Origin: Photobacterium halotolerans DSM 18316
GTDB taxonomy: Bacteria; Pseudomonadota; Gammaproteobacteria; Enterobacterales; Vibrionaceae
Assembly (NCBI RefSeq): GCF_000425165.1
Contig: NZ_AULG01000016.1
Span: 62,001 to 126,000 of the forward strand
Direction: 5' to 3'
Length of the DNA: 64,000 nt
Part shown: positions 41,079 through 58,121 of the stretch, one piece after another
How positions within the stretch are numbered: the stretch's first letter is position 1
How the letters are laid out: each line of letters opens with the position of its first letter
The notes under the pieces: generated by a model
What the model was told of the DNA's origin: nothing
Databases searched by the model: none
What the model saw: the letters and a program-made list of their open reading frames with translations, nothing else
Made by a program: the position numbers and the translations under genes

Positions 41079-41248
41079 AGGGCGCCCTGAATAATATACA
41101 TAGAATAGACAAAGTGTATATGAAACGTATATCCACAGCAATGTTATGCGATCACGATCCAAGTCGGCCTTTTCAGGCACAGGGAATCTTTACTTTCTCA
41201 TCCGTCCCCCCTGATAATGTCGGCCTGATTGACCATTCGAGCAGTTCT

Positions 41249-42415
41249 ATGATTCAGGTTCCTATTACCCCCCGCCCCAACTGGAAAATGCTGGCAGATG
41301 AATTTGGATTTCGTTTCCATACCCTGGAAGGCGAACCGTATTGGGTTGAAGACCGCTACTTTCAGTTCAGTTTGCAGCAGATTGAAAATGAGCTTGAAGC
41401 GCCCACCGCCGAGCTCCATCAAATGAGCCTGGAAGCCGTGGATAAAGTCATCCGCGATGAAGCCTTACTGAAAAAATTTCAGATCCCGGAAAACATGTGG
41501 GATCTGATTGCCAGCTCGTGGAAACAAAAAGCACCCAGTTTGTATGGGCGGCTGGATTTTGCCTACGATGGCCGTCATCCGGCAAAACTGCTTGAATTTA
41601 ACAGCGACACACCAACGTCACTTTACGAAGCCAGCTTCTGGCAATGGTTGTGGCTTGAAGATCAGGTCAATGCAGGTAAACTGCCAAGGCGCGCCGATCA
41701 GTACAATTTGATTCAGGAACTGATGATTCAGCGCATGGCGGCATTAGGCAGCTATCAGCCGGGACAGACACTGCATTTCGCCTGCTGCCGTGACAGCGTG
41801 GAAGACAGAGATACAGTGCAGTATCTTGAAGACTGCGCCAGAGAGGCCGGGCTGAAAATCGCCTTTGTGTATATTGAAGACATCGGCATCAATCAGGACG
41901 GCGAGTTTACCGATCTGGACGACAACCCTATTCGCTGGATGTTCAAGCTCTATCCGTGGGAGTTCATGTTCCGGGAAGAGTATGCCGCGTATCTGCACAC
42001 CGCCAATGTCAACTGGCTGGAACCTATGTGGAAAAGCATCAGTTCAAACAAAGCCATTCTGCCGCTGATGTGGGATATGTTTCCGCATCACCCGAACCTG
42101 TTGCCCGCCTACTTTGCCGATGATCCCAAAGCCGCAAGCCTGACAGATTTCGTGAAAAAACCGATTTTCAGCCGCGAAGGGGCCAACATCAGCGTGCATC
42201 GCGCCGGTGAAATACTGCAGCATGAACCCGGGCCGTACGGCGACGAAGGCTATATAGTCCAGCAATATACCCATTTACCCCGTTTCGGTAACAACCATAT
42301 GCTCATCGGCAGCTGGTTAATCAATGACGAACCCGCCGGACTGACGATCCGGGAAGATACCGGTTACATCACCAAAGATACCTCGATGTTTATTCCTCAT
42401 ATCATTCTGGATTAG
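41249..42415 (+). CDS. Glutathionylspermidine synthase-like protein (YgiC/YjfC family)
   Basis: A 388-residue protein with the fold of the glutathionylspermidine synthetase C-terminal domain (ATP-grasp). It begins IQVPITPRPNWKMLADEFGF; LYGRLDFAYDGRHPAKLLEFNSDTPTSLYE and KAILPLMWDMFPHHPNLLPA are family hallmarks, and the C-terminus reads VQQYTHLPRFGNNHMLIGSW. It probably ligates an amine to a carboxylate with ATP; the substrate is not known. The ATG at 41249 matches the family's usual start. Part of this gene (41617-41814) is repeated at 50941-51137. Confidence 0.88.
   Translation: MIQVPITPRPNWKMLADEFGFRFHTLEGEPYWVEDRYFQFSLQQIENELEAPTAELHQMSLEAVDKVIRDEALLKKFQIPENMWDLIASSWKQKAPSLYGRLDFAYDGRHPAKLLEFNSDTPTSLYEASFWQWLWLEDQVNAGKLPRRADQYNLIQELMIQRMAALGSYQPGQTLHFACCRDSVEDRDTVQYLEDCAREAGLKIAFVYIEDIGINQDGEFTDLDDNPIRWMFKLYPWEFMFREEYAAYLHTANVNWLEPMWKSISSNKAILPLMWDMFPHHPNLLPAYFADDPKAASLTDFVKKPIFSREGANISVHRAGEILQHEPGPYGDEGYIVQQYTHLPRFGNNHMLIGSWLINDEPAGLTIREDTGYITKDTSMFIPHIILD
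41617..41814. repeat. Duplicated host segment A, left copy
   Basis: This is the internal part of the intact glutathionylspermidine synthase-like gene. It matches 50941-51137 at roughly 94 percent, with one base missing in the right copy. Confidence 0.9.
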
Positions 42416-42454: not shown

Positions 42455-42688
42455 TACCTTGCAATTCGCTATCCCTCACTCATTAAAACTGTACTGCCGC
42501 TTCACTTCCACAACCTGCACTGTGTAAGAGGCGTACCATTTTTCCCGGCCAAACTGCTGAGCCAGTGAATGCTGGCTGTCTCTGTGCCAGTTCTGGATAT
42601 CTGCCTCGGTATCCCAATAGGAAATCGCGATTTCCTGATCCCCTTCTGTCACGGCGAGAAAATCCAGACAACCATATTTTTCAAATGC
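42455..42688. repeat. Duplicated host segment B, left copy
   Basis: These 234 bases match 51135-51368 with only two differences that I noticed, both A/G. The match ends sharply at 42688, where the transposase remnant begins. Confidence 0.93.
42476..42688 (-). pseudogene. Truncated monooxygenase-fold gene (ABM family)
   Basis: This is the 3' two-thirds of the gene that is complete at 51156-51449: the C-terminal 71 codons, ending RQYSFNE, with the stop at 42476-42478. It is cut at 42688 by the island, so start codon and N-terminus are lost. No frameshift was seen in the part that remains. Confidence 0.88.
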
Positions 42689-42960
42689 AAGCGAGGAAAG
42701 TACGAGTTCAGGGTAAAACGCCGCTGGTTCACTGAAAAGAAGCGCTTCTGTATATGGTTAACATACTTACCGCCGTCACAACTTTCAGCAGACGATATCA
42801 TCTCGGCATATCGGTGCCGCTGGCAAATTAAGCTGCTTTTCAAGGCGTTAAAGTCACATATCAATTGGCACCGTTTTGTAACAGCGTAAAAAGCCATTGC
42901 TAAAGCTTGGTTTGGGCCAGCTTGCTTACGCCATTAAGAGAAACTCAATGCTTAAAGTTC
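42689..42960 (+). pseudogene. IS4-type transposase remnant
   Basis: In frame from 42689 to the TAA at 42887 the DNA encodes a C-terminal transposase piece: LSADDIISAYRCRWQIKLLF and KALKSHINWHRF match the IS4-family YxxRWQIEllFKxlKSH block with its catalytic Glu position changed to Lys. Past the stop another frame continues (SLVWASLLTPLR), consistent with a frameshifted end. No terminal inverted repeats were identified. It marks the left edge of the island. Confidence 0.75.
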
Positions 42961-43059
42961 TGTTTATGAGAACTTGTAGAAACTGCCTTTGTTAGAAGAC
43001 TATACGAAAAAGAGAATGGCAACATTGCAGATTTTGGGCAATGATTGGTGGAGATAGCT

Positions 43060-43107
43060 ATGCAGGCTGAAGCAGCCGTCCATCCAATTATTAACACTTT
43101 GCCATGA
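43060..43107 (+). CDS. Possible 15-residue leader ORF coupled to nrdJ
   Basis: ATG at 43060 follows TGGAGATAG and encodes MQAEAAVHPIINTLP; its TGA overlaps the nrdJ ATG as ATGA. nrdJ itself has no ribosome site, so it may be translated by coupling. It could also be chance. Confidence 0.4.
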   Translation: MQAEAAVHPIINTLP

Positions 43108-44825
43108 CTAATGACGTGTTTGATCCCAACCAGTTATCACTGATTTCCACAAGGATTTGGGAATCCAAGTATCGACTGTACAATGATTCGATCAAAGAAA
43201 CCGCTATCGAGCAAAGCTGGCGGCGAGTTGCCAACACCCTGGCCGGGCCGGAAAAACAACAAGCCTATTGGCGTGAGAAGTTCTTTCAGATCCTGTCCGA
43301 TTGGAGCTTTTTACCAGCTGGGCGGATTCTTGCGGGGGCCGGTGCCGAGAATCACCGTATTACCTTGCTCAACTGCTTTGTCATGGGGGCAATCCGGGAC
43401 TCAATGCCGGGGATCAGCCGCTCCCTGCGCCAATCGGCTATTACCCTGCAACAGGGGGGAGGCATTGGCCTGGATTTCTCCAGCTTACAACCGGCCGGTA
43501 GCAGCCCGCTCCATCTGGGACCGGTCGCCTTGCTACAGATCTGGGATCGACTCTGTGCTGCACTGGCTGCCGGAGGCTCCAGGCGCGGTGCCATGTTAGC
43601 CAGCCTCCGGTGCGATCATCCGGACATTGAAGCCTTTGTCAGGGCCAAGAGCCTGGCAGCAAGTCTGATCCACTTCAATCTTTCGGTGCAGATAAGCGAC
43701 GACTTTATGCGGGCGGTGGCAGAGGATACGGGCTGGCAATTGTGTTTTCCTCCCGGGATTGCAACAGGCCCGACGATCAAAGCCAGGGACCTGTGGGAAC
43801 TGATCCTACAGTCGGCCTATGAAGGCGGAGAGCCCGGGGTACTGTTTGTAGACAGCATCAACAGGACCAATAACCTGGCTTACTGTGAACACCTGACCAC
43901 CACCAATCCCTGCGGCGAAGTTCCGCTCCCCCCTTTCGGCGCTTGCGACCTGGGGTCCATCAACCTGAGCCAGCTTGTGTCTAGACCGTTCAGCGAGGCA
44001 TGTGCATTTCAGTGGCAAAGGTTGGAATCGATCTGCACCACGGCGGTCCGCATGCTGGACAATGTGCTGGAAATTTCCAACTTTCCTCTGCGCCAACAGC
44101 GCCGCTGTGCCTTGCAGAGTCGCCGGATCGGGCTGGGCATTACCGGCCTGGCCGACTGTCTGCAGATGCTGGGGTTAGCATACGACAGCCCTGAGGCCAG
44201 GCAGTTTGCAACAGAACTAATGACTCGGATCCGCGACGCTGCTTATGCCGCTTCTGTCGAGCTCGCCGGCGAAAAGGGCTGTTTTCCCTGTTTCGACCAA
44301 AAAAACTATTTGCGGAGCACCTATATCCGCTCGCTGCCGCTGTCCCTGCAACATACGATTGGGAAAAAGGGGATACGCAACAGTCACTTGCTAGCCATTG
44401 CCCCTGCCGGCAGCATCAGTTTGCTGGCCAATAATGTTTGCAGTGGTATTGAGCCCATGTTCAGCCCAGGGTACTGGCGCCATATCCGCTTTTCCAAACA
44501 ACAGGAAAGTCTCTGGCTGGAGCCATACGGCGTGCATATGTGGCGCCACCTTAACCCCGGAAAAGCATTGCCTGATACCATGGTGGCGGCTGGCGATCTG
44601 ACACCGAGGGCCCATCTTGATATGCAGGCCTGCCTGCAACCTCTGGTGGACAATGCGATTGCCAAAACGATCAATGTTCGAGCCGATCTACCTTTTGTCC
44701 AGTTCAGGGATATCTACCGACAGGCCTTCCAACTGGGCCTTAAGGGCGTCACTGTTTATCGCCCCAACCGGGTGCGGCCGAATGTATTGGAACCGGAACA
44801 GGGCTGCAAACCGTCCGTCTGCTGA
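43104..44825 (+). CDS. nrdJ: Class II (adenosylcobalamin-dependent) ribonucleotide reductase
   Basis: A 573-residue reductase. The first active-site Cys is in LLNCFVMG near residue 91, with GGGIGLDFSSL and AAGGSRRGAM following. The radical Cys and Glu are in NPCGEVPL near 267-274, and AIAPAGSISLLANN is the class I/II phosphate-binding loop. The C-terminus ends CKPSVC, a possible redox relay pair. It makes deoxynucleotides with or without oxygen, using B12. It is shorter than many homologs (600 or more) and lacks an ATP-cone. No B12 gene or riboswitch is nearby. Confidence 0.9.
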   Translation: MTNDVFDPNQLSLISTRIWESKYRLYNDSIKETAIEQSWRRVANTLAGPEKQQAYWREKFFQILSDWSFLPAGRILAGAGAENHRITLLNCFVMGAIRDSMPGISRSLRQSAITLQQGGGIGLDFSSLQPAGSSPLHLGPVALLQIWDRLCAALAAGGSRRGAMLASLRCDHPDIEAFVRAKSLAASLIHFNLSVQISDDFMRAVAEDTGWQLCFPPGIATGPTIKARDLWELILQSAYEGGEPGVLFVDSINRTNNLAYCEHLTTTNPCGEVPLPPFGACDLGSINLSQLVSRPFSEACAFQWQRLESICTTAVRMLDNVLEISNFPLRQQRRCALQSRRIGLGITGLADCLQMLGLAYDSPEARQFATELMTRIRDAAYAASVELAGEKGCFPCFDQKNYLRSTYIRSLPLSLQHTIGKKGIRNSHLLAIAPAGSISLLANNVCSGIEPMFSPGYWRHIRFSKQQESLWLEPYGVHMWRHLNPGKALPDTMVAAGDLTPRAHLDMQACLQPLVDNAIAKTINVRADLPFVQFRDIYRQAFQLGLKGVTVYRPNRVRPNVLEPEQGCKPSVC

Positions 44826-44931
44826 TAGGAAAAATTTCCCATTTTATTCCTGTCGTTTTGCTTCTACATTGAAATAACCATGTTATTAAACTTGGGTGAA
44901 ACCGGTACCTTCGTGCCCCCTGGAGTTAGTG

Positions 44932-45585
44932 ATGCAGCTACCAATTGAAGACAGACGACGTGCTGGTCTGGCCTTAGCCGGATCCCTGCAATCTTTGACA
45001 GGGCGTAGCGACACTCTGGTACTGGCCTTGCCCAGGGGCGGAGTACCTGTAGCTTATGAGATAGCCCGGACTCTTCGGGCACCACTGGATCTGATGCTGA
45101 TACGCAAGTTAGGGGTGCCGGGCCATGCAGAACTGGCCATGGGCGCCATTGCTATAGGCGGATTCAGATTGTTGAATCAGGATGTTGTCCACAGCTTGTC
45201 GATCCCGGACGTGACCATAGCACAGGTGGAACAGCGGGAAAGGCATGAACTGGAGCGGCGCTTGCGGGTATACCGGGGGAACAAACCGCTGCCTGAACTG
45301 CACGACCGCTGCTTGATCCTGGTTGATGACGGGGTGGCCACTGGCGCGACCATGCGGGTCGCCATCGCCTCTGCCAGGCAGCAAAAACCCAGATTGATTC
45401 TGGTTGCAGTGCCGCTAGCACCCAAGGATATCGCCAGCCTGTTGCGTCGGGAAGCCGATAGGCTGGTGTGCCTGGCCACGCCCGAGCCATTTATCTCCAT
45501 CGGTTGTTGGTACCGTGACTTTCATCAGGTCAGCGACGAAGAGGTCAGTGCCCTGTTGTCCATGTCACAGCAAGATCTTGGGTGA
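44932..45585 (+). CDS. Phosphoribosyltransferase (COG1926-like)
   Basis: A 217-residue protein with a type I phosphoribosyltransferase fold. VLALPRGGVPVAYEIARTL and DLMLIRKLGVPGHAELAMGA are typical of the COG1926 group, and the PRPP loop is LVDDGVATGAT near residues 129-139. The acceptor base is not known. The start at 44932 follows GGAG; the frame extends upstream but without a site. It lies 106 bases after nrdJ on the same strand and converges with the nicotinate enzyme gene. Confidence 0.85.
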   Translation: MQLPIEDRRRAGLALAGSLQSLTGRSDTLVLALPRGGVPVAYEIARTLRAPLDLMLIRKLGVPGHAELAMGAIAIGGFRLLNQDVVHSLSIPDVTIAQVEQRERHELERRLRVYRGNKPLPELHDRCLILVDDGVATGATMRVAIASARQQKPRLILVAVPLAPKDIASLLRREADRLVCLATPEPFISIGCWYRDFHQVSDEEVSALLSMSQQDLG

Positions 45586-45668
45586 GCTCATCTAAAAGCT
45601 GGTATTGCATACTGTTGTTGTGCTGCCTCAATGGTGAGTGTCTCTAATGATGAATTCAATTCGAGCAG

Positions 45669-47018
45669 TCACCGTGAGCAATGAAAACGTTCGTCAGTCC
45701 TGCAAGTCAGTTTTTGCAGGGCTTGCGAAATTTTGAGCTCGAAACTGGCTGCCTTTGACAGATTCGCCAATGCCGGCGTCAGCATGGATAACTGCTGTTT
45801 CACCCGCTGACGTAAAATGTCGAGCGATTCTGGCGCTTCAAGCCGTTGACCGTCAAGGATGGCCGACTGTAGCAATGGCTGTCCTTGTTCAGAAATTTCT
45901 GTAGCTAAGCAAAGCTGATCATAGTCCAATTGCCCATTATTTCTCAGATAGCGATATACCTGCTTGCAGCCAGGCCAGGTCGCTTTACCTTGGGAACGTT
46001 TCCGTCGTGCGATGCCTGCGTATTCCTGTAACTTATAGGCACAATTTAAAAATGGTGCATCTTCTGAGGTCGTCAGGCTGGTCCCAATTCCATATCCATC
46101 AATCGGTGCCTGTTGTTGCCGTAATTGTTCGATCAAATACTCATCGACACTGCTACTTACAATAATCCCTATTTCCGGATGACCGTAACGATCAAGCAGT
46201 TCCCTGACCCGGATGGCCTCATTCCCCAGAGCACCGCTGTCAATCCGCACCGCCTTAATACATTGACCTTTGATTTTTAACTGCTCTGCCAGTTCAATCA
46301 CACGTTCAGCACCATGGCAACAATCGTAGGTATCAATGAGTAACACCAGATTATTCGGCTGGCTAACGGCAAAATTATGAAATGCTTCCGTTTCTGAGTC
46401 ATGAGCCTGAATATAAGCATGTGCCATTGTGCCATAAACCGGAATACCATAGTGCTGGCCGGCAAGAACATTTGATGTCCCATCAAAACCGGCAAGATAA
46501 CTGGCCCGAGCAGCCAGCATCCCTGCCTCTGCGCCATGGGCACGACGCAGTCCAAAATCGATTAATTGCTTGTCATCAGCGGCAAGCCTACAGCGAGCGG
46601 CTTTCGTGGCGACCAGTATGGGCAACTGCAGCAGATTAATGAGTCGTGTCTCGATCAATTGTGCTTCCGGTAAAGATGCCGTGATCTGAACAACCGGCTC
46701 ATTAGCAAAAAACAAGGTTCCTTCTTTCATCGCATTAACTTGCCCGGTGAAACGAAATTTGCTCAGGTAATCAATCAAATTCGGCCGGAAATAACCACTG
46801 TTGGCCAGATATTCCAACTCATCATCGCTAAAACGAACTTGGGTAAGAAAGTCCAGTAACTGCTCTAACCCTGCAGCCACTAAAAAGTTTCTCTTGGGTG
46901 GCAGCTTACGCACAAAAAATTCAAAGACCGCCTTATCTTTCATCCCGTGATCAAGATAACTCTGTACCATCGTCAGCTGATACAGATCAGTTAACTGCGG
47001 GCTATCATAGATTGTCAT
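45669..47018 (-). CDS. pncB: Nicotinate phosphoribosyltransferase
   Basis: A 449-residue enzyme of NAD salvage, making nicotinate mononucleotide from nicotinate and PRPP. TDLYQLTMVQSYLDHG at residues 10-25 is diagnostic; further on are DFGLRRAHGAEAGMLAARAS, YGTMAHAYIQA and RIDSGALG. I chose ATG at 47018 since GGAGG lies 7-10 bases upstream; the frame extends to 47087 without support. It is divergent from the Usp gene. It may be an extra copy to the chromosomal pncB, which is not in this window. Confidence 0.9.
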   Translation of the reverse strand: MTIYDSPQLTDLYQLTMVQSYLDHGMKDKAVFEFFVRKLPPKRNFLVAAGLEQLLDFLTQVRFSDDELEYLANSGYFRPNLIDYLSKFRFTGQVNAMKEGTLFFANEPVVQITASLPEAQLIETRLINLLQLPILVATKAARCRLAADDKQLIDFGLRRAHGAEAGMLAARASYLAGFDGTSNVLAGQHYGIPVYGTMAHAYIQAHDSETEAFHNFAVSQPNNLVLLIDTYDCCHGAERVIELAEQLKIKGQCIKAVRIDSGALGNEAIRVRELLDRYGHPEIGIIVSSSVDEYLIEQLRQQQAPIDGYGIGTSLTTSEDAPFLNCAYKLQEYAGIARRKRSQGKATWPGCKQVYRYLRNNGQLDYDQLCLATEISEQGQPLLQSAILDGQRLEAPESLDILRQRVKQQLSMLTPALANLSKAASFELKISQALQKLTCRTDERFHCSR

Positions 47019-47582
47019 GTTCCAGTACCTCCACATGCTTATCCGTGGTACCGGCCACTTTCTTCTGGAGTGGCGTAAAGCGAACATGACCGGGGTTCAG
47101 GAGCCCAGTTCGTGTTGCATAATTCAGACGAACCACATTCAATTTCCCCCTTTCACTCCCTCAGGTATCCTATTCAAGAATAGGATACCTGCACAGTCAG
47201 CAGGAATAATAAGCAGGTTCGTGTCACGAATCATTGAACCTGAAATAATCTTGCTCATACAGTTTATCAGGTGACTTCTGTTGAGCATGACGGCTAGTTA
47301 AGGTGTGTTTGTCAACGACTATCATAAACACTGATGGTAAGCGGATCTGTTCACAAAATTGAAATCTTCGTATCAAGCGTAATTTGGTCTGATATCGCTT
47401 TTGTATGCTAAATGTATCAGGTGCTGGCTATTGGCGGGAGGCACCAACACATTGAGACAGGTCCGGAGTCATCCCCTTATCTTCGAGACTTGTCTATGCT
47501 TTTGAAGCAACCATTTTATACTCAGCTTCGCTGATTCTTAGCGGCAATATGTTCGGCTGACGTTACATCCGAGGAAATTACT
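47019..47582. other. Divergent region between pncB and the usp gene
   Basis: About 560 bases without a recognisable gene. It contains a perfect 13-bp inverted repeat at 47163-47190 and presumably both promoters. I looked for an FNR/ANR site (TTGAT-N4-ATCAA) and did not find a convincing one. Confidence 0.5.
47163..47190. promoter_or_regulatory. Perfect 13-bp inverted repeat, possible operator
   Basis: AGGTATCCTATTC and GAATAGGATACCT pair perfectly across two bases (AA). The tiny loop makes an RNA hairpin unlikely, so a site for a dimeric DNA-binding protein is more plausible. It lies 145 bases upstream of pncB and 393 bases upstream of the usp gene. Confidence 0.55.
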
Positions 47583-48524
47583 ATGAGCTTTCGTCATCTT
47601 CTGCTTCCTGTCGCCCCGGAACTACCGCTGGGGAATGCTTTTCATGAAGTACTGAAAATTGCTGATTCCCAGTCGGCCAAGGTTACTTTGATCTCAGTTA
47701 TTGAAAATCTTGATGAGTTGAAGGAAATTTCTCAGTATTCCAGCAAGGTGTTGAGTCTTTTGGGCGAGACAACGAAAACGTCCCATCAGGCCTTGGAAAA
47801 GCATGCTCAGCTGTTGAAAGTTAAATACCCGAATATCAAGTTTTCGGTCATTGTTCGGTTGGGGATACCGTTTATTGAAATTATCAAGGCGGCTGATGAA
47901 GTTCAGGCCAGTATGATAGTGATTGATACCCACCGTCAGAATAAAACACAAGCCTGTCAGCGGGGAAGTACGACCCGTCATTTAATGCGTAAGTCGGCAC
48001 TCCCAATCTGGTCCAGCAGCTCTCATCAGTCACCGATCCGCCAGATTGCCGTAGCTGTTGATGTGGCCTCTCCGGAGCAGACCACCTTTAATGAGAAAAT
48101 CCTGTCGCTTGCCTTAGAAGTCTGCACATTCACCGGGGCCGAGTTGATTTTGCTCCATGCCTGGCATACTGATCTCACGGAATTTTTTCGTAAATGGGGG
48201 AATTACCGCGATCTGGATGTCGACTTAATTTCGAAAGAAATACGATTAGAACGCGTCGAACGAATGAAATCACTGCTAGCACTGCACACTGACTCGCCGG
48301 TAAGGCAGCAAATCAAGATACTGGAAGGGGAAGCTAAAACGGTTATCCCCCGCTTTGTGATGGAAAAATCGATTGATATGGTGATTATGGGCACACTGTC
48401 CCGCACCGGAATTGCAGGATTCTTGATGGGGAATACCGCAGAATCCATGCTCAATAAGCTGACCTGTTCAGTGCTCACGCTCAAACCCGATGCGTTTCAT
48501 TCTCCGGTGCTGGACAGGAAATAA
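47583..48524 (+). CDS. Tandem universal stress protein (UspE-like)
   Basis: A 313-residue protein of two Usp domains: residues about 1-145 (FRHLLLPVAPELPLGNAFHE, degenerate in its nucleotide loop) and about 150-313. The second ends with the ATP-binding pattern GTLSRTGIAGFLMGNTAESM and SVLTLKP. Such proteins help survival under starvation, oxygen or energy stress; the exact partner is not known. GAGGAAATT precedes the start. It is between the nicotinate enzyme and the decayed Lon-like gene. Confidence 0.9.
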   Translation: MSFRHLLLPVAPELPLGNAFHEVLKIADSQSAKVTLISVIENLDELKEISQYSSKVLSLLGETTKTSHQALEKHAQLLKVKYPNIKFSVIVRLGIPFIEIIKAADEVQASMIVIDTHRQNKTQACQRGSTTRHLMRKSALPIWSSSSHQSPIRQIAVAVDVASPEQTTFNEKILSLALEVCTFTGAELILLHAWHTDLTEFFRKWGNYRDLDVDLISKEIRLERVERMKSLLALHTDSPVRQQIKILEGEAKTVIPRFVMEKSIDMVIMGTLSRTGIAGFLMGNTAESMLNKLTCSVLTLKPDAFHSPVLDRK

Positions 48525-48549
48525 ATTACGGTATTATCAGCCATGTCAC

Positions 48550-49259
48550 CTTAGCTTCATTGTACACGGTGCAGTTACGGCTGCTGACTCTAGTTTGAAT
48601 CTGGTGGAACGGGTGGAGAACCTCAGCCATGCCGGTACTTTGATACCAATTTTATATTGATTAAACCCGGCGCTGCATCGTGCCAATGTTGCTGGAACGG
48701 CCCAACTGGTTGACCATCCCTTGCTGTAAGATTCGTTCAAGCGCGCAATGCGAGCCAGTCAAATCCGGATCCAGTATCTAGAACAAATGCTGAGCCTGAC
48801 CACCACTACGATCGAGCCGCAGGTGGTACCATTTGACTTGAAAGTGGTGCTTTGTGGTAATCGGCTGCTGTACTATTGGCTCAAATATTATGATCCGGAA
48901 TTTAACTTATTACTTAAGGTTCGAGCCGATTTTTCAGAGGAACTGCCCCTAAATGAAGCCTCAATGACATTGTATGCCCGCCTGATTAAGTCGGTGGAGA
49001 GCCGTGAAAGGTTACTCCCTTTGTCACGGGAAGACGTTGCCCGGGTGAGCTATCTCAAAGAGCGTAACCAGGAAAATGTGATACCAAAGGCTTCGCAGTG
49101 GGCCAGATCAACGCGCTGTCAGTTGTGGCGGTTGGTGACCATCCCTTTGGCTGCCCTCAAGGCTCACCGCAACCATTCGTCTGGGCGGTTCGATTCACTC
49201 CAAAGGCGTGACGGTAACCGGCAGGCTGATGTTGTCAGTTGCAAGCTGCACTGACAGCA
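48550..49259 (+). pseudogene. Decayed Lon-like ATP-dependent protease gene
   Basis: Family pattern is visible in one frame from 48556: SSLNLVERVENLSHAG, then after a TGA LNPALHRANVAGTA, then after a TAA DSFKRAMRASQIRIQYLEQM, then LDLKVVLCGNRLLYYWLKYY-like and YDPEFNLLLKVRADF. These match the Lon-like protease family (COG1067). A jump to another frame near 49090 gives GFAVGQINALSVVAVGDHPF and GGSIHSKGVTVTGRLM, from the protease part, with about 100 residues missing between. Two stops, a frameshift and a deletion make it non-functional. The longest open piece is 48748-49254. Confidence 0.8.
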
Positions 49260-49585
49260 AAATACCGCTCAACCCATAACTCGTCATCAAGATCAAAGAG
49301 CTGACAAGCAATAGCATCAGTGGTTGCAGTGCCGCGGTAATAGACACGATGGTACTTCCTCGAATCCGGATGATGAGCGGTGATCAGTTTATCTTTGCTT
49401 TTAAGCATGAACGCATGTGTTGTGTTGTCTCTCTCATGAAACCTGCACTATTTTGCACTGAGCTATAATGGAATGGGCGCAGACGGGAGCCGTGATGTCC
49501 TGCCACGTCAGAGCTACCAGTCACCGGGTAAATAGCGACACGCCCGGGTGAACCAATCTCAAACTTCAGCCTGAATCGTGGTGTT
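49260..49585. other. Intergenic region before cbpA
   Basis: About 325 bases after the Lon-like pseudogene. It may hold more of its decayed 3' end and the cbpA promoter. Nothing further is recognisable. Confidence 0.4.
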
Positions 49586-50542
49586 ATGGAATATCGTGAT
49601 TATTACGCCATCCTTGGAATTTCCCGCGATGCAACATTGGCGGATATCAAACGAGCTTATAAGAAAAGTGCGCGCAAATACCACCCAGATGTGTCGAAGG
49701 AAACCGACGCCAAAGAGAAGTTTATTCAGGCCAAAGAGGCCTATGAGGTGCTCAAGGATCCCCAGAAGCGGGCCGCTTATGATCAATTGGGTAAAGACTG
49801 GCATTCCGGGGAGCATTTTCATGTACCACCAAACTGGGAACGCAATTATCAGTTTTCCAGTGAGGGTTTTTCCCGGGGTGATGCTTCTGCATTCTCTGAT
49901 TTTTTTGAATCGCTGTTCGGCGATCACTTTGATCATAGCGCAGGACGCCATCATCGCGCTCGCAGAGCACATCAACATTTCACAGCCAAGGGCGAAGATA
50001 TCCACGCCAAGGTTCAAATTGATATTGAAGACAGCTTTCATGGCGCGGTACGCACCCTCACCCTGCCATCATCCCCGCTCGACGGCGCGTCCCCTCAGAC
50101 CGTGAATTTAAAAATTCCTAAGGGGGTCCGGGAAGGTCAGCATATTCGTCTGGGCGGCAAGGGAATGCCCGGCCATGGCGGCGGCGCGGCGGGCGATCTT
50201 TATCTTGAAATCAGTTTTCGTCCGCACCCGTACTACCGGCTTGAGCAGAAAAATCTGTATATGGCCCTCCCCGTCACACCATGGGAAGCAGCCTTGGGCG
50301 CTAAAATAAAGATACCGACTCCTACAGGGCCCATTGAGGTGACGGTGCCGGCCAATTCGGTTTCAGGGAAAATACTGCGGCTTCGCGGCCGGGGACTCCC
50401 CGGAGCCTCACCCGGGGATATGCTGATCACGCTGAATATTGTCCAGCCCAAGGTGAAAAGCGAGCAGGAAAAAGCTCTGTACCGGCAGATGCAGGATCTG
50501 ATGTCCTTTAACCCTCGTGGTCAATTTGGATTTGAGTCATGA
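49586..50542 (+). CDS. cbpA: DnaJ-type co-chaperone CbpA
   Basis: A 318-residue Hsp40 co-chaperone. The J domain spans residues 1-70 with the HPD motif in KYHPDVSKE. A Phe/Ser/His-rich linker follows, then the two C-terminal client-binding subdomains (IHAKVQIDIEDSFHGAVRTL to the end, with IRLGGKGMPGHGGG and LRLRGRGLPG). There is no zinc finger, as in CbpA. It stimulates DnaK. Its stop overlaps the cbpM start, so the two are coupled. The host's main dnaJ is expected elsewhere. Confidence 0.92.
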   Translation: MEYRDYYAILGISRDATLADIKRAYKKSARKYHPDVSKETDAKEKFIQAKEAYEVLKDPQKRAAYDQLGKDWHSGEHFHVPPNWERNYQFSSEGFSRGDASAFSDFFESLFGDHFDHSAGRHHRARRAHQHFTAKGEDIHAKVQIDIEDSFHGAVRTLTLPSSPLDGASPQTVNLKIPKGVREGQHIRLGGKGMPGHGGGAAGDLYLEISFRPHPYYRLEQKNLYMALPVTPWEAALGAKIKIPTPTGPIEVTVPANSVSGKILRLRGRGLPGASPGDMLITLNIVQPKVKSEQEKALYRQMQDLMSFNPRGQFGFES

Positions 50543-50856
50543 AGAAAAAAATTACGTCAAGCCAGCTCAGTATTACGGTCATTGCAGAGCATGAGCCGAC
50601 GCTTAACCTGGCAGAGTTTTGTCGCGCTTGTGGTCAACCTGCTGAATGGGTGATCGCCCTGGTTGAAGAAGGAGTCCTGGATCCTCAGGGAGATCGGCCA
50701 ATTCACTGGCGCTTTGCCTCCGTCAATCTGCGCCGTGCTCTGCGCGCCAGTCGTATTCAGCAAGATTTGGAGTTGAATATACCCGGAGTTGCTGTGGCGC
50801 TTGATCTGCTGGATGAAATCGAACGACTGCAACGTCGATTGGATTGCCGATATTAG
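50539..50856 (+). CDS. cbpM: CbpA modulator CbpM
   Basis: A 105-residue protein of the CbpM/MerR-like family, with LAEFCRACGQPAEWVIALVE and the acidic then basic helices ending DLLDEIERLQRRLD. It binds the CbpA J domain and restrains it. It overlaps the cbpA stop (ATGA). Confidence 0.9.
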   Translation: MKKKITSSQLSITVIAEHEPTLNLAEFCRACGQPAEWVIALVEEGVLDPQGDRPIHWRFASVNLRRALRASRIQQDLELNIPGVAVALDLLDEIERLQRRLDCRY

Positions 50857-50940
50857 ATTACCCTTTAGTAGTCACTAAATCATAAAACTTAGAATTTATT
50901 TACATAAGGTTATAAGTCATAAAATAAAACGAGGGTTAGT

Positions 50941-51137
50941 GTCGCTTTACGAAGCCAGCTTTTGGCAATGGTTGTGGCTTGAAGATCAGGTCAATGCAGG
51001 CAAACTGCCAAAACACGCCGATCAGTACAATTTGATTCAGGAACTGATGATTCAACGCATGGTGGTATTGGCAGCTACCAGCCGGGACAGACACTGCATT
51101 TCACCTGCTGCCGTGACAGAGTGGAAGACAGAGATAC
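50941..51137 (+). pseudogene. Fragment of the glutathionylspermidine synthase-like gene
   Basis: These 197 bases match 41617-41814 of the intact gene at about 94 percent, with a one-base deletion that shifts the frame near 51069. The match then jumps straight to the downstream segment, so about 640 bases are deleted at a short TAC/TACC overlap. This is the right copy of duplicated segment A. Confidence 0.88.
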
Positions 51138-51368
51138 CTTGCAATTCGCTATCCCTCACTCATTAAAACTGTACTGCCGCTTCACTTCCACAACCTGCAC
51201 TGTGTAGGAGGCGTACCATTTTTCCCGGCCAAACTGCTGAGCCAGTGAATGCTGGCTGTCTCTGTGCCAGTTCTGGATATCTGCCTCGGTATCCCAATAG
51301 GAAATCGCGATTTCCTGATCCCCTTCTGTCACGGCGAGAAAGTCCAGACAACCATATTTTTCAAATGC
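51135..51368. repeat. Duplicated host segment B, right copy
   Basis: This is the partner of 42455-42688, almost identical. It covers the 3' part of the intact ABM gene and the bases after it. Confidence 0.93.
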
Positions 51369-51449
51369 CAGATCCCGCATCATTTTAACCATATCAGCAT
51401 ACTGGCTGTCCTGCTGACCCGTTTTGGCTTTGAAAATCACTGCGAACAT
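51156..51449 (-). CDS. Antibiotic biosynthesis monooxygenase-fold protein
   Basis: A 97-residue protein of the ABM dimeric ferredoxin-like fold: [20 protein letters not shown] at the front, CLDFLAV and [20 protein letters not shown] in the middle. Such small proteins act as quinone or haem monooxygenases or have unknown roles; the name does not prove antibiotic synthesis. It is the complete copy; the one at 42476 is truncated. Confidence 0.85.
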
Positions 51450-51549
51450 TTGCCTCTCCCTGGCTTATCATCTGAACGTCTATCTCTGAGCATTCCGCAG
51501 AGCATGAACAAACTCTGCATGCGGCATAAAAATACGGTAATACTGATAA

Positions 51550-51990
51550 CTATTCTGACAATCTCTGCTGAGCCTTCAGCGCTACGTCAGCCACTTTTTC
51601 GATGAGGTCCGACTGGCTGCTGACAATGTCGGCCACTGACATCCAGCAACAGTCACTGGCGTCATCGCCCGGCTGCAGATCCCCCTCCATATAGCGGCAA
51701 AGTACAGGCACCAGAATAAAGTGATGGTGACAGTTGTCGCCATCGAACTCGTTCACTTCAACCACTTCCAATAATTGTTCTGCGACCGCTGACACACTGG
51801 TCTCTTCTTTCAGTTCGCGCACGGCCGCATCACGCAGGCTTTCGCCCGGCCAGACGGAACCACCGGGAAAACCCCAGCCACCTTTCTGCGGCTCGTTCTT
51901 ACGTTGAACCAGAATGAGTTGATCGTCTTTGTAGGTGACAGCGAGAACCGCCACTTTGGGTGATGAATACGTGCTGTGTTGCTGGGGCAT
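51550..51990 (-). CDS. Nudix hydrolase
   Basis: A 146-residue protein with the Nudix box running from GGSVWPGESLRDAAVRELKE to EETSV, matching GX5EX7REUXEEXGU apart from its last position. It likely cleaves a nucleoside diphosphate linked to another group. AGGAAG precedes the ATG at 51990. Confidence 0.9.
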   Translation of the reverse strand: MPQQHSTYSSPKVAVLAVTYKDDQLILVQRKNEPQKGGWGFPGGSVWPGESLRDAAVRELKEETSVSAVAEQLLEVVEVNEFDGDNCHHHFILVPVLCRYMEGDLQPGDDASDCCWMSVADIVSSQSDLIEKVADVALKAQQRLSE

Positions 51991-52105
51991 GCCGGGCTTC
52001 CGAATTTTGTTTCAGGAAGCCCATGATATCGCATGTTTTAAGCAGAAAGTACCTACCGCGCCACAGCCGTTCGCACAGAGCGGCAGACTAAGATGGACGA
52101 ATGAT

Positions 52106-52438
52106 TCAGTTCAGAGGTTTGATTGGCACCGTTTTCAGATTGTCATCAAGCTGATCATTGATCTTGATGTAATCTTCACCTTTGACGTCATAGATAGACT
52201 GTTTTTGAGTCACAACGTTTTCGCCGGTCCAGAACTCAATGGGGTTGAGCACCATGTAATCTGCCACTGTGGTCACAGCGTAAACCGGTGCCATCGCAAT
52301 GGTCAGCCCGCCACGGGCGTAACGGTTATCCACCACATCCATATTGAATTTCATGGTTGCATTCGTTGCCGCCATCTAGCCCGCACAACCCGTTAATAAA
52401 GACACCAGAGAGACTGCAACAAAAGCCATTTTTTTCAT
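52106..52438 (-). pseudogene. DUF3332 lipoprotein gene interrupted by an amber codon
   Basis: From ATG at 52438 the frame encodes a lipoprotein signal, MKKMAFVAVSLVSLLTGCAG, then TAG at 52376-52378, then continues without a break as MAATNATMKFNMDVVDNRYA and PIEFWTGENVV, the DUF3332 pattern. Relatives have Gln at that place, so a CAG to TAG change is likely. The downstream ATG (52373-52375) opens an 89-residue frame, but it would lack the signal and lipid anchor. It could be a pseudogene, a read-through gene or a sequencing error. Confidence 0.82.
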
Positions 52439-52623
52439 TGTTCAATACCCATAAATAAAACAGGGTTTAATGGTAGCAAGGTGCGTATTAATTAGAATCC
52501 ACGGCTTGTTAAATCTGGTACAAATTCAGCAGGCGTTCAGTTAAAAAACATCGTTCAATTCAAGAGAGGAATATATACAGTCATCCGTTTTGAGCCACTG
52601 AATATGTCTTCGGAAAACATCCG

Positions 52624-53019
52624 TTATTCTTTATCGAAACTGTCCACAATGATCGCCCCCATTGAAGCGGGCATGGCAATAATCAAGGCACGCTTAACAG
52701 CAACAACCCAGTTATCCATCAGTGGAAACTGGTTAAGCGAAAACAGGATCAGACAAACCACCAGGTAGGTAATCAGATAGGCCCCAAGCACCCTGGCCAG
52801 AAAGACAGGTACGCGTTCACGGATATTCTGACCAAACATAGACTGATAGGCGTACAGCCCCATGAAGGCCAGAGTGAAACCGACAAGGACAGACAAATTC
52901 AGCAGCGGAAGGGACTCACTCAGTTGCCAGGCTTCTTCAGAGAAGGAAATGGGGACGCCCAGGGCAAAAGCGCCGATCACAATCTGACCCAAATCTTCTG
53001 CGTTGAATTTCCAATCCAT
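52624..53019 (-). CDS. DUF2391-like membrane protein
   Basis: A 131-residue protein with four predicted membrane segments (around 10-25, 36-58, 72-96 and 105-125). LNLSVLVGFTLAFMGLYAYQ and VKRALIIAMPASMGAIIVDS resemble the TIGR02587/DUF2391 family. Function is unknown. REP-like palindromes lie just upstream of its start. Confidence 0.65.
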   Translation of the reverse strand: MDWKFNAEDLGQIVIGAFALGVPISFSEEAWQLSESLPLLNLSVLVGFTLAFMGLYAYQSMFGQNIRERVPVFLARVLGAYLITYLVVCLILFSLNQFPLMDNWVVAVKRALIIAMPASMGAIIVDSFDKE

Positions 53020-53052
53020 TGACCGCTCCTGTTTATTTTGCTTCTAACCGTT

Positions 53053-53160
53053 CCTCCCCCTTTTCAAGGGGGAGGTTAGGAGGGGGTTACAAGGCACAAG
53101 CGTCAAATCCGTGCCCGCTTCACGAACCCCACCCTAACCCTCCCCTTGCCAAGGGGAGGG
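53053..53160. repeat. Pair of inverted REP-like palindromes
   Basis: Left, 53053-53075: CCTCCCCC, TTTTCAA, GGGGGAGG, followed by TTAGGAGGGGG. Right, 53138-53160: CCCTCCCC, TTGCCAA, GGGGAGGG, preceded by CCCCACCCTAA. The two units are oppositely oriented and share the GGTTAGG(G/A)(T/G)GGG flank, like a BIME-type composite. It lies between the starts of one gene and the end of another (mgtE stop at 53189). Confidence 0.85.
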
Positions 53161-53188
53161 AATGTCCGTACTCCCTCTATGTCGTGGT

Positions 53189-54571
53189 TCAGCCCAGTAA
53201 AAACAGGCTACCAAGGCCGAGAAAGGTAAAAAAGCCCACCACATCAGTGACTGTAGTGAGTATGACTGACCCGGACAGGGCCGGATCAATCTCGTATTTA
53301 TCCAGGATCACCGGAATCACGACACCGGCAATTGCCGCAACCACAATATTAATGGTGATAGCAGCGGCGATCACCCCGCCAATCGCTATACTGCTGAACC
53401 AGACAGCCGCTACAATCGCGATAACCACCGCCCAGAGCACGCCGTTCAGGCAGGCGACCAGCAACTCTTTCTTGGCCAGTGACCACACGTTACCAAAGGT
53501 GATCTGTCCCATCGCCAGACCACGAATAATCAGGGTCAGGGTCTGACTGCCGGCTATGCCCCCCATTGACGCCACCACAGGCATCAGGACCGCCAGTGCC
53601 ACCACCTGGCTGAGCGTGGCTTCAAACAACCCGATGGTCCAGGACGCCAGAAATGCGGTCAGCAAATTAATACCCAGCCACAAGGCGCGGCGTTTGGCAC
53701 TGAGCCAGACGGGAGCAAACAGGTCGGTGTCTTCATCCAGACCTGCCCGCGCCATCAGCCTGGCTTCATAGGTTTCCCGGGTAATTTCCATCGCCAGCCG
53801 CAGTGTGGCGCGCCCGACAAAGCGGCCGGAATCATCCACCACAGCCATCGCCGCCTGATCCGAGTGTTCAAGACGCTCTGCAGCATCATAAACGTCCATC
53901 TCCGCTTTCAGGGGAGACGCAATGTCATCTTCCAGACTGTCGACCCTGACCTGACCATCGGCCGCCAGCAGGACAGGCAATGACACCTCACCTCTGTAAT
54001 GTCCCTTTTTATCAACAATATAGACGCGATCCAGCATAGGATGATCGGCGCGTCGCACCGCACGCAAGGCTTCAAAAACACGGGTATTCGGCGTTAACAT
54101 CACCAGGCTGTGATCCACATAACGGCCGATCTGTTCTTCGTCATACTGCTGGCTCTGTTCATACCAGGACTTCTGATCCTGGCTCATCTTCGCCAGTGCG
54201 AAGTCTACCAGCTTATCTGACAGACTCTGTGACAGCTCAATCAGATCTTCAGCGTCCAGCCCGTGTAGCATAGCGCGCAGATCCGGCATACTGAGATTGT
54301 CGATCAGCACGCCCCGCGCATCGGAGCGCATGGCAACCAGAACTTCTACCCGCTCTTCCGGAGCAACCGTCTGCCAGAGAGCCAGACGTTCATCAATAGG
54401 CAAAGATTCCAGCAGTAAGCCCAGCTCTGACGTTTCCAGCACTTCCGAGGCTTCAGAGAATACCCTTTCCTGCTCTTCGTCATGAACCCGGTTAAGATCT
54501 TCAACCCACTGACTGAGTTCCTGTTGTGGCAGAAGATCTTTCACCGCTGCTTTGTCTTGTTCTTCATTCAT
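53189..54571 (-). CDS. mgtE: Magnesium transporter MgtE
   Basis: A 460-residue magnesium channel. The N-terminal helical domain (1-140) includes LLESLPIDERLALWQTVAPE, two CBS motifs span about 140-260 (with YIVDKKGHYRGEVSLPVLL), and five membrane segments follow from about 290, including PVVASMGGIAGSQTLTLIIR, the Mg-binding loop. It imports Mg2+ and is gated by Mg2+ in its soluble part. It is the last gene of a five-gene run. Confidence 0.93.
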   Translation of the reverse strand: MNEEQDKAAVKDLLPQQELSQWVEDLNRVHDEEQERVFSEASEVLETSELGLLLESLPIDERLALWQTVAPEERVEVLVAMRSDARGVLIDNLSMPDLRAMLHGLDAEDLIELSQSLSDKLVDFALAKMSQDQKSWYEQSQQYDEEQIGRYVDHSLVMLTPNTRVFEALRAVRRADHPMLDRVYIVDKKGHYRGEVSLPVLLAADGQVRVDSLEDDIASPLKAEMDVYDAAERLEHSDQAAMAVVDDSGRFVGRATLRLAMEITRETYEARLMARAGLDEDTDLFAPVWLSAKRRALWLGINLLTAFLASWTIGLFEATLSQVVALAVLMPVVASMGGIAGSQTLTLIIRGLAMGQITFGNVWSLAKKELLVACLNGVLWAVVIAIVAAVWFSSIAIGGVIAAAITINIVVAAIAGVVIPVILDKYEIDPALSGSVILTTVTDVVGFFTFLGLGSLFLLG

Positions 54572-54588
54572 AGTTTTTCTTACATTAT

Positions 54589-55173
54589 TTACTGCTGCGT
54601 GCTTGCCTGTGGTGTATCAACCGCCTCAGGCTGCTCATTATCCGGCTTAGGATTCACCACAACCTGGGTCAGTTTAATCACGGGTTTTTGCAAAATGATG
54701 TTATTGGGATAGGTGACCAGGCTGCCATCGGTGCGCTCAATAATCACATGAAACATGGTGATATCCTTGATCACACCACTGATATCGTCGTCTTTATCCA
54801 CCACTTTGACCCGATCGCCAATACGGTACGGAAACACAAAAAAGATCAGCACACTCGCCGTCACGTTGCTCAGCATGGACCATTGTGCGAACAAGGCGAC
54901 ACCCAGCACAGCAAAGGCCGAAGAGAAAAACAGTGAAATGTCACTGTATCCCAGCCCCAGACTGATCACCGCCACGCTGAACAACACAAAAAATACCACA
55001 GACGATAAAACGCGAGAGATAAACCGCACTCTGGCTTCACTGACCATCTTGGTTTTACCCAATCTGGTCAGCCACAAGTTGATGACACGTTTAGCAATCG
55101 TATAAACAATCAGAAAAACCAGAATAATAAACAGGTTATAAGCCAACCGACTTTGTAGAATGGCTTCTATCAT
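54589..55173 (-). CDS. Small mechanosensitive channel, MscS family
   Basis: A 194-residue protein with three predicted membrane segments and a short cytoplasmic beta domain: GVALFAQWSMLSNVTASVLI is the pore-helix to beta transition, then PYRIGDRVKVVDKDDDISGV and LVTYPNNIILQKPVI. It is much shorter than MscS (286) and lacks most of the C-terminal domain. It starts one base inside the zntB-like stop and lies 17 bases before mgtE. Confidence 0.85.
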   Translation of the reverse strand: MIEAILQSRLAYNLFIILVFLIVYTIAKRVINLWLTRLGKTKMVSEARVRFISRVLSSVVFFVLFSVAVISLGLGYSDISLFFSSAFAVLGVALFAQWSMLSNVTASVLIFFVFPYRIGDRVKVVDKDDDISGVIKDITMFHVIIERTDGSLVTYPNNIILQKPVIKLTQVVVNPKPDNEQPEAVDTPQASTQQ

Positions 55174-56129: not shown

Positions 56130-56179
56130 AAAGTGCGCCTCCCGTGCGCAAAAATAAGAATGGTTAGCTCAACATCCCA

Positions 56180-57223: not shown

Positions 57224-58121
57224 TGGTGCGCGTCCTCTGCGGTTTTGCGGTTGATTCTATGTATTTGATTATCATACCCGCGATATCCTTACCAGTCGCT
57301 TGTTCAATACCTTCCAAACCTGGGGAGGAGTTCACTTCCATCACCAGCGGCCCGCGCTGGGAACGCAGCAGATCCACACCGGCTACACGCAGTCCCATCA
57401 CCTTGGCGGCAAGCACTGCCGTCTTACGTTCTTCCGGCGTAATCCGGATTAACGACGCCGATCCGCCACGGTGCAGGTTAGAACGAAATTCCCCTTCGGC
57501 CCCCTGACGCTTCATTGCGGCGATCACTTTATCGCCGATCACGAAACAGCGGATATCCGCACCGCCCGCTTCTTTGATGTATTCCTGCACCATGATGTTA
57601 GCTTTCAGCCCCAGAAAGGCTTCAATCACACTTTCTGCCGCCTTACGGGTTTCAGCCAGTACCACACCTATCCCTTGCGTCCCTTCCAGCAGTTTGATCA
57701 CCACAGGTGCGCCGCCCACCATTTCAAGCAAGTCACCAATATCATCCGGCTTGCTGGCAAAGCCGGTGATCGGCATCCCGACCCCTTTGCGCGACAGCAA
57801 TTGCAGCGAACGTAATTTGTCCCGGGAGCGGGTAATAGCGACAGATTCATTGACCGGAAAAACGCCCATCATTTCAAACTGACGCAATACCGCACAGCCA
57901 TAGAAAGTCACCGAGGCGCCGATGCGCGGAATAATGGCATCAAATCCGGATAAATCCTGTCCTTTGGAGTGGATGGAAGGCTGGTCGGAATTGATGTTCA
58001 TATAGCAGCGCAACGCATCAATGACCTGCGCCTCATGCCCACGCTCACGGCAGGCTTCAATCAGACGACGGGTTGAGTACAGCTTTGAATTACGGGAAAG
58101 GATACCAATTTTCATTGTCAC
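57210..58121 (-). CDS. rimK: RimK, glutamate ligase of ribosomal protein S6
   Basis: A 303-residue ATP-grasp ligase. It begins [20 protein letters not shown], with [20 protein letters not shown], a glycine-rich loop in [15 protein letters not shown] and metal-binding [14 protein letters not shown] near the end. It adds glutamate to the C-terminus of ribosomal protein S6 in relatives. The first codon (ATG at 58115-58117 or at 58121) is not fully certain. It is first in a five-gene run. Confidence 0.92.

Follow-up and report, generated by a model that had tools for sequence, protein, structure and literature searches.

A probable composite genomic island, partly decayed, flanked by two incomplete copies of a Photobacterium host locus

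We identified a genomic island in a 64-kb window (the whole stretch of Photobacterium halotolerans DNA that was analysed), where a GSPS-ABM host locus, present in two incomplete copies, encloses an insert of 8.25 kb (about 42692-50937). The island is genuine, though of a fairly ordinary kind, and our main reading, to which we give a probability of roughly 60%, is that it is a composite, partly decayed Photobacterium island whose modules were brought together through homologous recombination at a recombination-active locus. It would comprise three pieces: (a) an IS4 remnant, nrdJ, a phosphoribosyltransferase gene (PRT), pncB, usp and a lon pseudogene; (b) cbpA-cbpM; and (c) a second copy of the host GSPS-ABM segment, truncated at its 5' end. 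The joins, a junction common to two relatives, empty and partly filled sites, relics, and the presence of piece (a) in part and piece (b) wholly at other loci of the genus are directly observed.

The left copy of the host locus retains an intact, glutathionylspermidine-synthase-like GSPS gene (41114..42415, forward strand; 433 aa, PF03738 at E 2e-155, 93-96% DNA identity in the relatives G007, G015 and G034), followed by the left copy of the ABM-side repeat (42455..42691), which includes the 3' portion of ABM, interrupted at about 42691. The right copy begins with a GSPS fragment (50938..51143, forward strand), which starts inside the gene and is followed by a deletion of ~640 bp at which two repeat parts are fused, and continues with the right ABM-side repeat (51135..51371), the intact ABM gene (51156..51449, reverse strand; 97 aa, 79-92% amino acid identity in relatives) and, in the right host flank, a Nudix gene (51550..51990, reverse strand; PF00293). 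A repeat search of the window recovered 42455-42691 and 51135-51371 as direct repeats at 99% identity, and 41617-41745 plus 41747-41820 against 50941-51143 at 93%; the repeats have thus diverged to unequal degree. The two ABM parts are 98.6% alike, versus 88-93% to G007, G015 and G034, and the left GSPS-ABM junction is of the type seen in the second copy of G034. These repeats, together with the PF03738 match and the ABM alignment, bear out the proposal of an earlier note on this DNA that the cargo was inserted in a split, partly duplicated host locus, with an intact synthase-like gene and a cut ABM gene on the left and a synthase fragment and an intact ABM gene on the right. The name ABM is that of the same note, and the protein has no family match in Pfam or NCBIfam. 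The cbpM|GSPS junction recurs in two related genomes, G015 (on two contigs) and G034, indicating that the flanking repeats and the island are not an assembly artefact.

Comparison with the same site in relatives showed that the cargo is not common to all of them. The closest relative, G007, has a clean empty site with no trace of cargo in the locus, in the order GSPS, short ORF, pentapeptide gene, ABM, MscS channel, Nudix, whereas G015 and G034 are partly filled, and contain, of the cargo, only cbpA-cbpM with the cbpM|GSPS-fragment junction of the window. Cargo is thus absent at the same site in a close relative, as in a genomic island in the broad sense. The G034 locus additionally holds a 40-bp PRT relic (E 2e-9), indicating that a larger cargo was once present there. 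All three relatives have a pentapeptide-type gene separating GSPS from ABM, accompanied in some genomes by further short ORFs, and an MscS-type gene before Nudix, the family assignments resting on Pfam in G007; both genes are missing in the window. Thus, an empty site exists in the nearest relative, but the predicted layout, GSPS directly followed by ABM, is seen in none of the compared relatives, other genes lying between them. As for the cargo elsewhere, pncB-usp and cbpA-cbpM recur in other Photobacterium, at separate loci.

The identities proposed for the cargo proteins NrdJ, PF00156-type PRT, nicotinate phosphoribosyltransferase, tandem Usp, CbpA-like and CbpM-like were confirmed by Pfam and NCBIfam. 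The adenosylcobalamin-dependent ribonucleotide reductase gene nrdJ (43104..44825, forward strand; 573 aa) scores 488.8 bits with TIGR02504 against a cut-off of 399.95, which places it among class II NrdJ/NrdZ reductases, and its product aligns to Thermotoga maritima 1xje with retention of NPCGE, which we take to be the class II active-site motif. In 52 genomes of the genus, no close relative of NrdJ was found; the own genome also encodes NrdA, NrdD and BtuR. A cobalamin riboswitch before nrdJ was considered and rejected, as Rfam gave 0 matches within 36-56 kb. The PRT gene (44896..45585, forward strand; PF00156) is related to TT1426 (1wd5, E 3.5e-39), the sole PDB match at E 0.001. Among 20 NrdJ loci elsewhere, a PRT lies nearby in five, and PncB and a LonB-type gene in one each; among 80 PRT loci elsewhere, FNR-type regulators, PncB and Usp were each found in 9, and all three of the nine regulators that were tested were called Fnr. 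NrdJ was near none of these 80 PRT loci, indicating that the exact gene set is not a fixed unit. At E 1e-20 the PRT was detected in one of 247 family genomes, the own genome, which suggested cargo unique to the species; this was overturned by the pncB search and by a PRT relic in G044.

The nicotinate phosphoribosyltransferase gene pncB (45669..47018, reverse strand; ORF open from 47087, homology starting at about 47018; TIGR01513 and NF006696 above cut-off) has homologues in 7 of 246 other family genomes. It is divergent from usp (47583..48524, forward strand), which encodes a UspE-like tandem universal stress protein with two PF00582 stretches. Between them lies a perfect palindrome with 14-bp arms (47162..47191), a candidate operator and the only inverted repeat in the cargo (arms of 10 bp or more, within 40 bp). 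It is a single site in the own genome with up to 3 mismatches allowed, absent outside the cargo, and is conserved with 2 mismatches at the same place in the pncB-usp gap of G044; elsewhere, with up to 6 mismatches, a search of 2.41 Mb of compared loci excluding that of G044 yielded one 6-mismatch site, in L077. The pncB-usp pairs of G044 and G008 resemble that of the window (PncB 84-86% identical; Usp 77% in G044 and 80% in G008 at the amino acid level), but occupy a different genomic locus, and the PRT is broken in G044 and was not found in G008. The G044 order is PRT relic-pncB-palindrome-usp, close to genes for enoyl reductase and acetate kinase, and neither nrdJ, lon nor cbpA had a match in 20 kb around pncB-usp in either genome. 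The pair is 79-80% identical to those of G044 and G008, only slightly above the single core region compared (the NrdA region, 77%), and so could be old. A recent import had been suggested by comparison with the 53-56 kb flank (68-71% in the same two genomes), and was weakened by this core value.

Adjacent to usp, a LonB/LonC-type protease pseudogene (48598..49216, forward strand) persists as fragments that are scattered over different frames and disrupted by stops and deletions (partial PF13654; three significant tblastn pieces with an intact relative). The dead Lon-like protease of the earlier note is thus Lon-type, with a LonB AAA piece, and non-functional, but it is not a whole enzyme. The Lon piece has a match near NrdJ in one of the 20 NrdJ loci (L164, LonB-type by Pfam), and the L164 protein, used as a query over the NrdJ and PRT loci, found no further case. 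The pieces stop at 49216, where homology to the G043 cbpA locus begins with the cbpA upstream block (49217..49585, forward strand).

The chaperone module consists of cbpA, a DnaJ-type gene of CbpA type (49586..50542, forward strand; PF00226, PF01556), and the CbpA modulator-like gene cbpM (50539..50856, forward strand; PF13591, MerR_2), both products scoring below NCBIfam's own CbpA and CbpM cut-offs. We found cbpM in 6 of 52 genus genomes, and cbpA-cbpM at other loci in three more Photobacterium (G043, G044 and G021); in window coordinates, the match to this region spans 49217-50850 for G043, and begins at 49248 for G034 and at 49283 for G015. The window pair is 84.3% identical to the distant G044 versus 78.1% to the nearer G043, which points to a possible transfer inside the genus. 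With dN/dS of about 0.12-0.18 for cbpA among three species, in contrast to the decaying GSPS fragments, cbpA-cbpM appears to be the part that is kept while other parts are shed. In the three pairwise comparisons, synonymous distances of cbpA (0.07-0.16) fall below the 33 values obtained from the flanks (0.18-0.74). Divergence is greater, however, in noncoding cargo DNA and in the GSPS fragments (identity 0.815-0.904; d = 0.26), so that these distances do not separate vertical descent from transfer between species.

These distances bear on an alternative that we consider possible although clearly less probable than our main reading, in which the common ancestor of the window's genome (G000), G007, G015 and G034 already had the complete island, which was then lost or eroded in the other three. 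The cbpM|GSPS junction common to three species, the PRT relic of G034 and the separate decay of the GSPS fragments are consistent with such inheritance. Against it stand the traceless locus of G007, the relative nearest to the window, the low synonymous distances of cbpA, and the 51-59 kb stretch next to the island, in which 4 of 8 one-kb bins, versus 2 of 20 on the left side, place G007 nearer to G034 than to the window, as if this stretch had been imported with the island. The sequence evidence thus leans against vertical inheritance and is not decisive, because a recombination event across the repeats would be scarless. Import of the right flank was itself considered as a separate candidate and set aside; 4 of 8 right bins fit, yet 2 of 20 left bins fit too.

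At the left junction we additionally identified the C-terminal remnant of an IS4-family transposase (about 42692..42889, forward strand; NCBIfam IS4 model 1.9e-14, below cut-off; PF01609 just below cut-off), a feature absent from the earlier account of the island. Since it begins where ABM is cut, an IS4 element that bore or captured the nrdJ-lon block might have entered the ABM gene, with the duplication as a by-product of IS recombination. We regard this as unlikely: the remnant stands on the left side only and the island edges lack inverted repeats, whereas a composite transposon would have an IS with inverted repeats at both ends, and a DNA search found no second copy in the own genome. 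Furthermore, G015 (intact ABM1) and G034 (frameshifted ABM1) both have cbpA-cbpM and the GSPS junction, and neither locus has a significant match to the remnant DNA or to its 65-aa peptide, the latter also lacking a match at E 0.001 in 30 Photobacterium and family loci.

For a composite island assembled by homologous recombination, we infer a mode of movement in which entry and rearrangement would proceed via the island's own GSPS-ABM segment, much like the single-crossover integration of a circle, and would require no integrase. Recombination between the repeats would homogenise them, and could delete the cargo cleanly. No integrase was detected by Pfam or NCBIfam among ten cargo and flank proteins (41.1-51.4 kb), and no tRNA lies near the island, the two of the window being at 4.8-5.0 kb; the site-specific recombinase and the tRNA or att target of integrase-type islands and ICEs are thus not seen here. 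A plasmid origin was considered and set aside, as megablast gave 0 matches among 72,556 plasmids, a set from which near records were possibly left out. The lack of any circle, donor or second isolate of the species among the data counts against this reading. A broader version strikes us as quite improbable, namely that the Photobacterium GSPS-ABM interval is an integrase-free exchange site, at which circles or fragments with their own GSPS-ABM copy enter by one RecA crossover and exit cleanly between repeats, bringing modules that differ between species, such as the stress genes of this island and a C39-type export and radical-SAM cassette in G043.

As to the joint function of the cargo, we infer that NrdJ may provide O2-independent, B12-using deoxyribonucleotide synthesis, PncB nicotinate salvage for NAD, and PRT a PRPP-using activity; with Usp these might form a low-oxygen or stationary-phase survival set backing up DNA-precursor and NAD supply, while CbpA-CbpM would be a chaperone pair under independent selection that shares the site. 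A single functional unit, as first proposed, is not supported, because the modules occur apart: cbpA-cbpM stands alone in G015 and G034 (with the PRT relic in the latter), and pncB-usp and cbpA-cbpM are separate in other Photobacterium. Scanning the whole window for FNR-like sites with up to 2 mismatches, with what we take to be the FNR box consensus, gave 47 versus 34.9 expected, a slight excess reached in 3 of 100 shuffles. Low-oxygen control of the cargo genes is unproven, since all cargo sites have 2 mismatches, including one (49283) ~300 bp before cbpA, and neither the pncB-usp gap nor the DNA immediately before nrdJ contains one. The suggested link to low oxygen or stress thus has no such site directly before nrdJ, pncB or usp, but retains the FNR-type regulators near PncB, PRT and Usp elsewhere and, in the part of the literature available, a published NrdZ-PncB2 parallel (PMC4428469). 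We consider it doubtful that the island is a dedicated, DosR-like low-oxygen regulon unit moving as a whole. In the DosR regulon of Mycobacterium tuberculosis and M. kansasii, NrdZ and PncB2 are indeed encoded at a single locus, with Usp in the core regulon, according to the available portion of that paper (PMC4428469); PRT is adjoined by FNR-type regulators in Pseudomonas, and acetate kinase is encoded close to pncB in G044. However, Pfam detected no DosR-like or equivalent oxygen/redox regulator among the cargo proteins scanned, and the lack of FNR-like sites directly before the genes and the scattered modules likewise argue against it.

Among known systems, the transmissible locus of stress tolerance carries ClpK, sHsp20 and FtsH, none of which occurs among the cargo Pfam matches. 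Our literature search found no account fitting the cluster, which is not a claim that it is unpublished. The island shares species-specific cargo, repeat borders and an empty site in a relative with direct-repeat-flanked genomic islands, but no integrase or tRNA target was found, and its repeats are ~1 kb of protein-coding host DNA with a large deletion in one copy. It offers a case in which to test how islands are gained and lost through plain homologous recombination. It would also illustrate how a stress and nucleotide-supply set is assembled from modules, some of them shared within one genus. PRT-Fnr-pncB-usp neighbourhoods of Pseudomonas (e.g. L045, P. jinjuensis) are similar in PRT (54-60% identical), PncB (56-57%) and, in some, a nearby tandem Usp, but several include an Fnr-type regulator, and flanks of up to 9 kb contain no NrdJ match. 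We know of no counterpart of cbpA-cbpM and the duplicated host locus in a DosR-type locus. The closest published parallel is nevertheless the NrdZ-PncB2 locus of the mycobacterial DosR regulon, for which, in the part of the paper available, patchy distribution is described and horizontal origin proposed (PMC4428469). Both co-locate a B12-dependent ribonucleotide reductase with a nicotinate phosphoribosyltransferase, have a patchy distribution and involve a Usp (in the regulon or in the cargo), whereas no DosR-type regulator was found in the island, the likeness being one of gene content, with gene order not compared at the sequence level. Thus, a marine bacterium echoes the pairing of B12-dependent ribonucleotide reductase and NAD salvage in mycobacterial hypoxia loci.

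The island (about 42692-50937, 8.25 kb) is real, composite and partly eroded, and its borders and modules are shown. A repeat search of the window identified a direct repeat pair of 99% identity, 42455-42691 and 51135-51371, and a second direct repeat of 93%, in two pieces, at 41617-41820 and 50941-51143. On the left side, the glutathionylspermidine-synthase-like gene (GSPS) is whole and the small ABM gene, without a Pfam or NCBIfam family, is severed at about 42691; on the right side, ABM is whole and GSPS is reduced to a fragment. The insert between two incomplete copies of one host locus, as proposed in an earlier note, was borne out in its repeats, extent and genes, with corrections. A ParD-like antitoxin gene (PF11903, 40869-41180) adjoins GSPS.

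The left junction is the start of an IS4-type transposase remnant (NCBIfam, below cut-off). NrdJ/NrdZ and the nicotinate phosphoribosyltransferase PncB scored above their NCBIfam cut-offs, the second phosphoribosyltransferase (PRT) belongs to PF00156, and a tandem Usp and a LonB-type AAA piece were recognised by Pfam/NCBIfam. The CbpA-type DnaJ protein and CbpM-type protein are so named with scores below the NCBIfam CbpA and CbpM cut-offs. The Lon-like protease, called dead in the earlier note, consists of pseudogene pieces (48598-49216) rather than one gene.

We compared the site with related genomes. The best GSPS match in the plasmid collection was NZ_CP073579.1 of Photobacterium sp. GJ3 (1,690,710 bases; 89.9%), and the closest in six genomes were at 93-96% in G007, G015 and G034, and 80-81% in G013, G043 and G040. 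The window's genus is Photobacterium. Of G007, G015 and G034, the genome closest to the window is G007 in every 1-kb bin from 23 to 63 kb for which G007 has a value; at 63-64 kb, the final bin, G015 comes closer. In G007, GSPS is followed by a short ORF, a pentapeptide gene and ABM, and then by an MscS gene (534 aa) and Nudix; nothing in the locus matches the cargo, and there is no GSPS fragment. The expected empty site exists in cargo-free form, but with the short ORF and pentapeptide gene separating GSPS from ABM.

G015 and G034 are partly filled. Each has, in order, the resident GSPS-pentapeptide-ABM1, cbpA-cbpM, a GSPS fragment, a further copy of ABM and an MscS-type gene. The further ABM copy is complete in G034 and partial in G015; ABM1 is frameshifted in G034 and intact in G015. 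The window, G015 and G034 share the same junction of cbpM with the GSPS fragment. Between ABM1 and cbpA, G034 retains 40 bp matching the window PRT (92.5%, E 2e-9), indicating that at least PRT was formerly present there. Compared with G007, G015 and G034, the window lacks both the pentapeptide gene and the MscS gene. The GSPS-ABM interval of G043 (L119:6330-14896) is occupied by another cassette, of a C39-peptidase ABC exporter, an HlyD protein, a radical SAM protein and an acetyltransferase; the interval looks variable from species to species. Window positions 53051-53172 match the G040 locus more than once (L120:7215-7337 and 10091-10156), and may be a member of a dispersed repeat family.

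The mode of movement is inferred. On the left of the window, GSPS and ABM are joined as in the G034 second copy, not as in the resident type. The two ABM parts of the window, left and right, share 98.6% identity with each other, versus 88-93% with ABM of G007, G015 and G034. The sequence nearest to the window's GSPS fragment is the window's own GSPS (14/200 differences, versus 17 for G007, 23 for G034 and 24 for G015), and the G015 fragment is distant from it (41/186). These patterns fit repeated recombination between copies. The GSPS fragments of the window, G015 and G034 have differing deletions and stops, and have decayed independently. In the right flank (51001-59000), 4/8 one-kb bins place G007 nearer to G034 than to the window, versus 2/20 in the left flank (23-43 kb); the right flank was possibly imported together with the island.

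CbpM was found in 6/52 genus genomes, three at the island locus (window, G015, G034) and three (G044, G043, G021) at other loci. Homology to the G043 cbpA block begins at 49217, one base past the last Lon piece. Window cbpA-cbpM is 84.3% identical to G044, versus 77.2% for the core NrdA region, and 78.1% to G043, versus 79% for the 53-56 kb flank, which, with one core region as yardstick, argues for transfer within the genus. By our own Nei-Gojobori script, pairs among the window, G015 and G034 gave dN 0.012-0.019 and dS 0.067-0.164 for cbpA, dN 0.013-0.030 and dS 0.068-0.142 for cbpM, and dS 0.18-0.74 for eleven flank genes. The adjacent noncoding DNA is 0.815-0.904 identical, so the low dS may partly reflect codon constraint. 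We read cbpA-cbpM, from these sequence comparisons, as a working chaperone pair being retained.

The other modules have different distributions. Ribonucleotide reductase matches (E 0.001) occur in 51/52 genus genomes; beyond the own gene, the best nrdJ match is G027 at 44%, the remainder being partial and at most 44%. At E 1e-100, NrdJ matches occur in 52/369 genomes of the class, own included, the best others at 50-54%. Intact PRT (E 1e-20) was found in one of 247 family genomes, the own, and PncB occurs in eight of the 247: the own, G008 (86%), G044 (84%), G021 (81%) and four at 73-74%. Among the seven other PncB genes, usp adjoins those of G008 (80% aa) and G044 (77% aa). The G008 (L206) and G025 (L209) pncB matches were reported with one internal TGA, yet each place has an ORF of full length (453 and 447 aa, respectively), and both genes look whole. 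Window pncB-usp is 79-80% identical to G044 and G008, versus 77% for the core region, a contrast too small to decide its origin.

A perfect palindrome with 14-bp arms, CAGGTATCCTATTC-AA-GAATAGGATACCTG (47162-47191), lies between divergent pncB and usp, and is single in its own genome. G044 keeps it with two mismatches (L207:10764-10793), likewise between pncB and usp, and there a broken PRT precedes pncB. In G008, G021, G025, G026, G049 and G485, no such palindrome was found in front of pncB. The palindrome may be an operator. Acetate kinase and enoyl reductase genes lie about 4.6-7.4 kb from the G044 pncB-usp locus; their DNA also occurs near pncB in G025 and G049, with no match in the pncB stretches of G008, G021, G026 and G485.

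NrdJ aligns to the Thermotoga maritima B12 enzyme and keeps the NPCGE motif. The genome also encodes NrdA, NrdD and the adenosyltransferase BtuR, making NrdJ an additional, oxygen-independent route. The sole PDB relative of PRT, TT1426, is titled a hypothetical protein. For the joint function of the cargo, we infer a possible low-oxygen role, as suggested earlier. Against this counts the window scan, in which FNR-like sites are in slight excess overall and none lies directly before nrdJ, pncB or usp. Supporting it are the gene neighbourhoods and a mycobacterial parallel. Across 80 of the 281 PRT loci found (with at most 9 kb of flank, and in many cases less), FNR-type regulators, PncB and Usp each occur in nine, CbpA in three and NrdJ in none; the three regulators tested, out of nine, all match NCBIfam Fnr above cut-off. 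Class-wide, 51 other genomes had a NrdJ match; around NrdJ in 20 of them, we found PRT in five, PncB in one and a LonB-type gene in one. The parallel comes from a published account (PMC4428469), which describes a DosR-controlled locus of Mycobacterium tuberculosis and M. kansasii that contains both NrdZ and PncB2, and suggests its horizontal acquisition; like the island, that locus pairs NrdZ with a PncB2-type enzyme.
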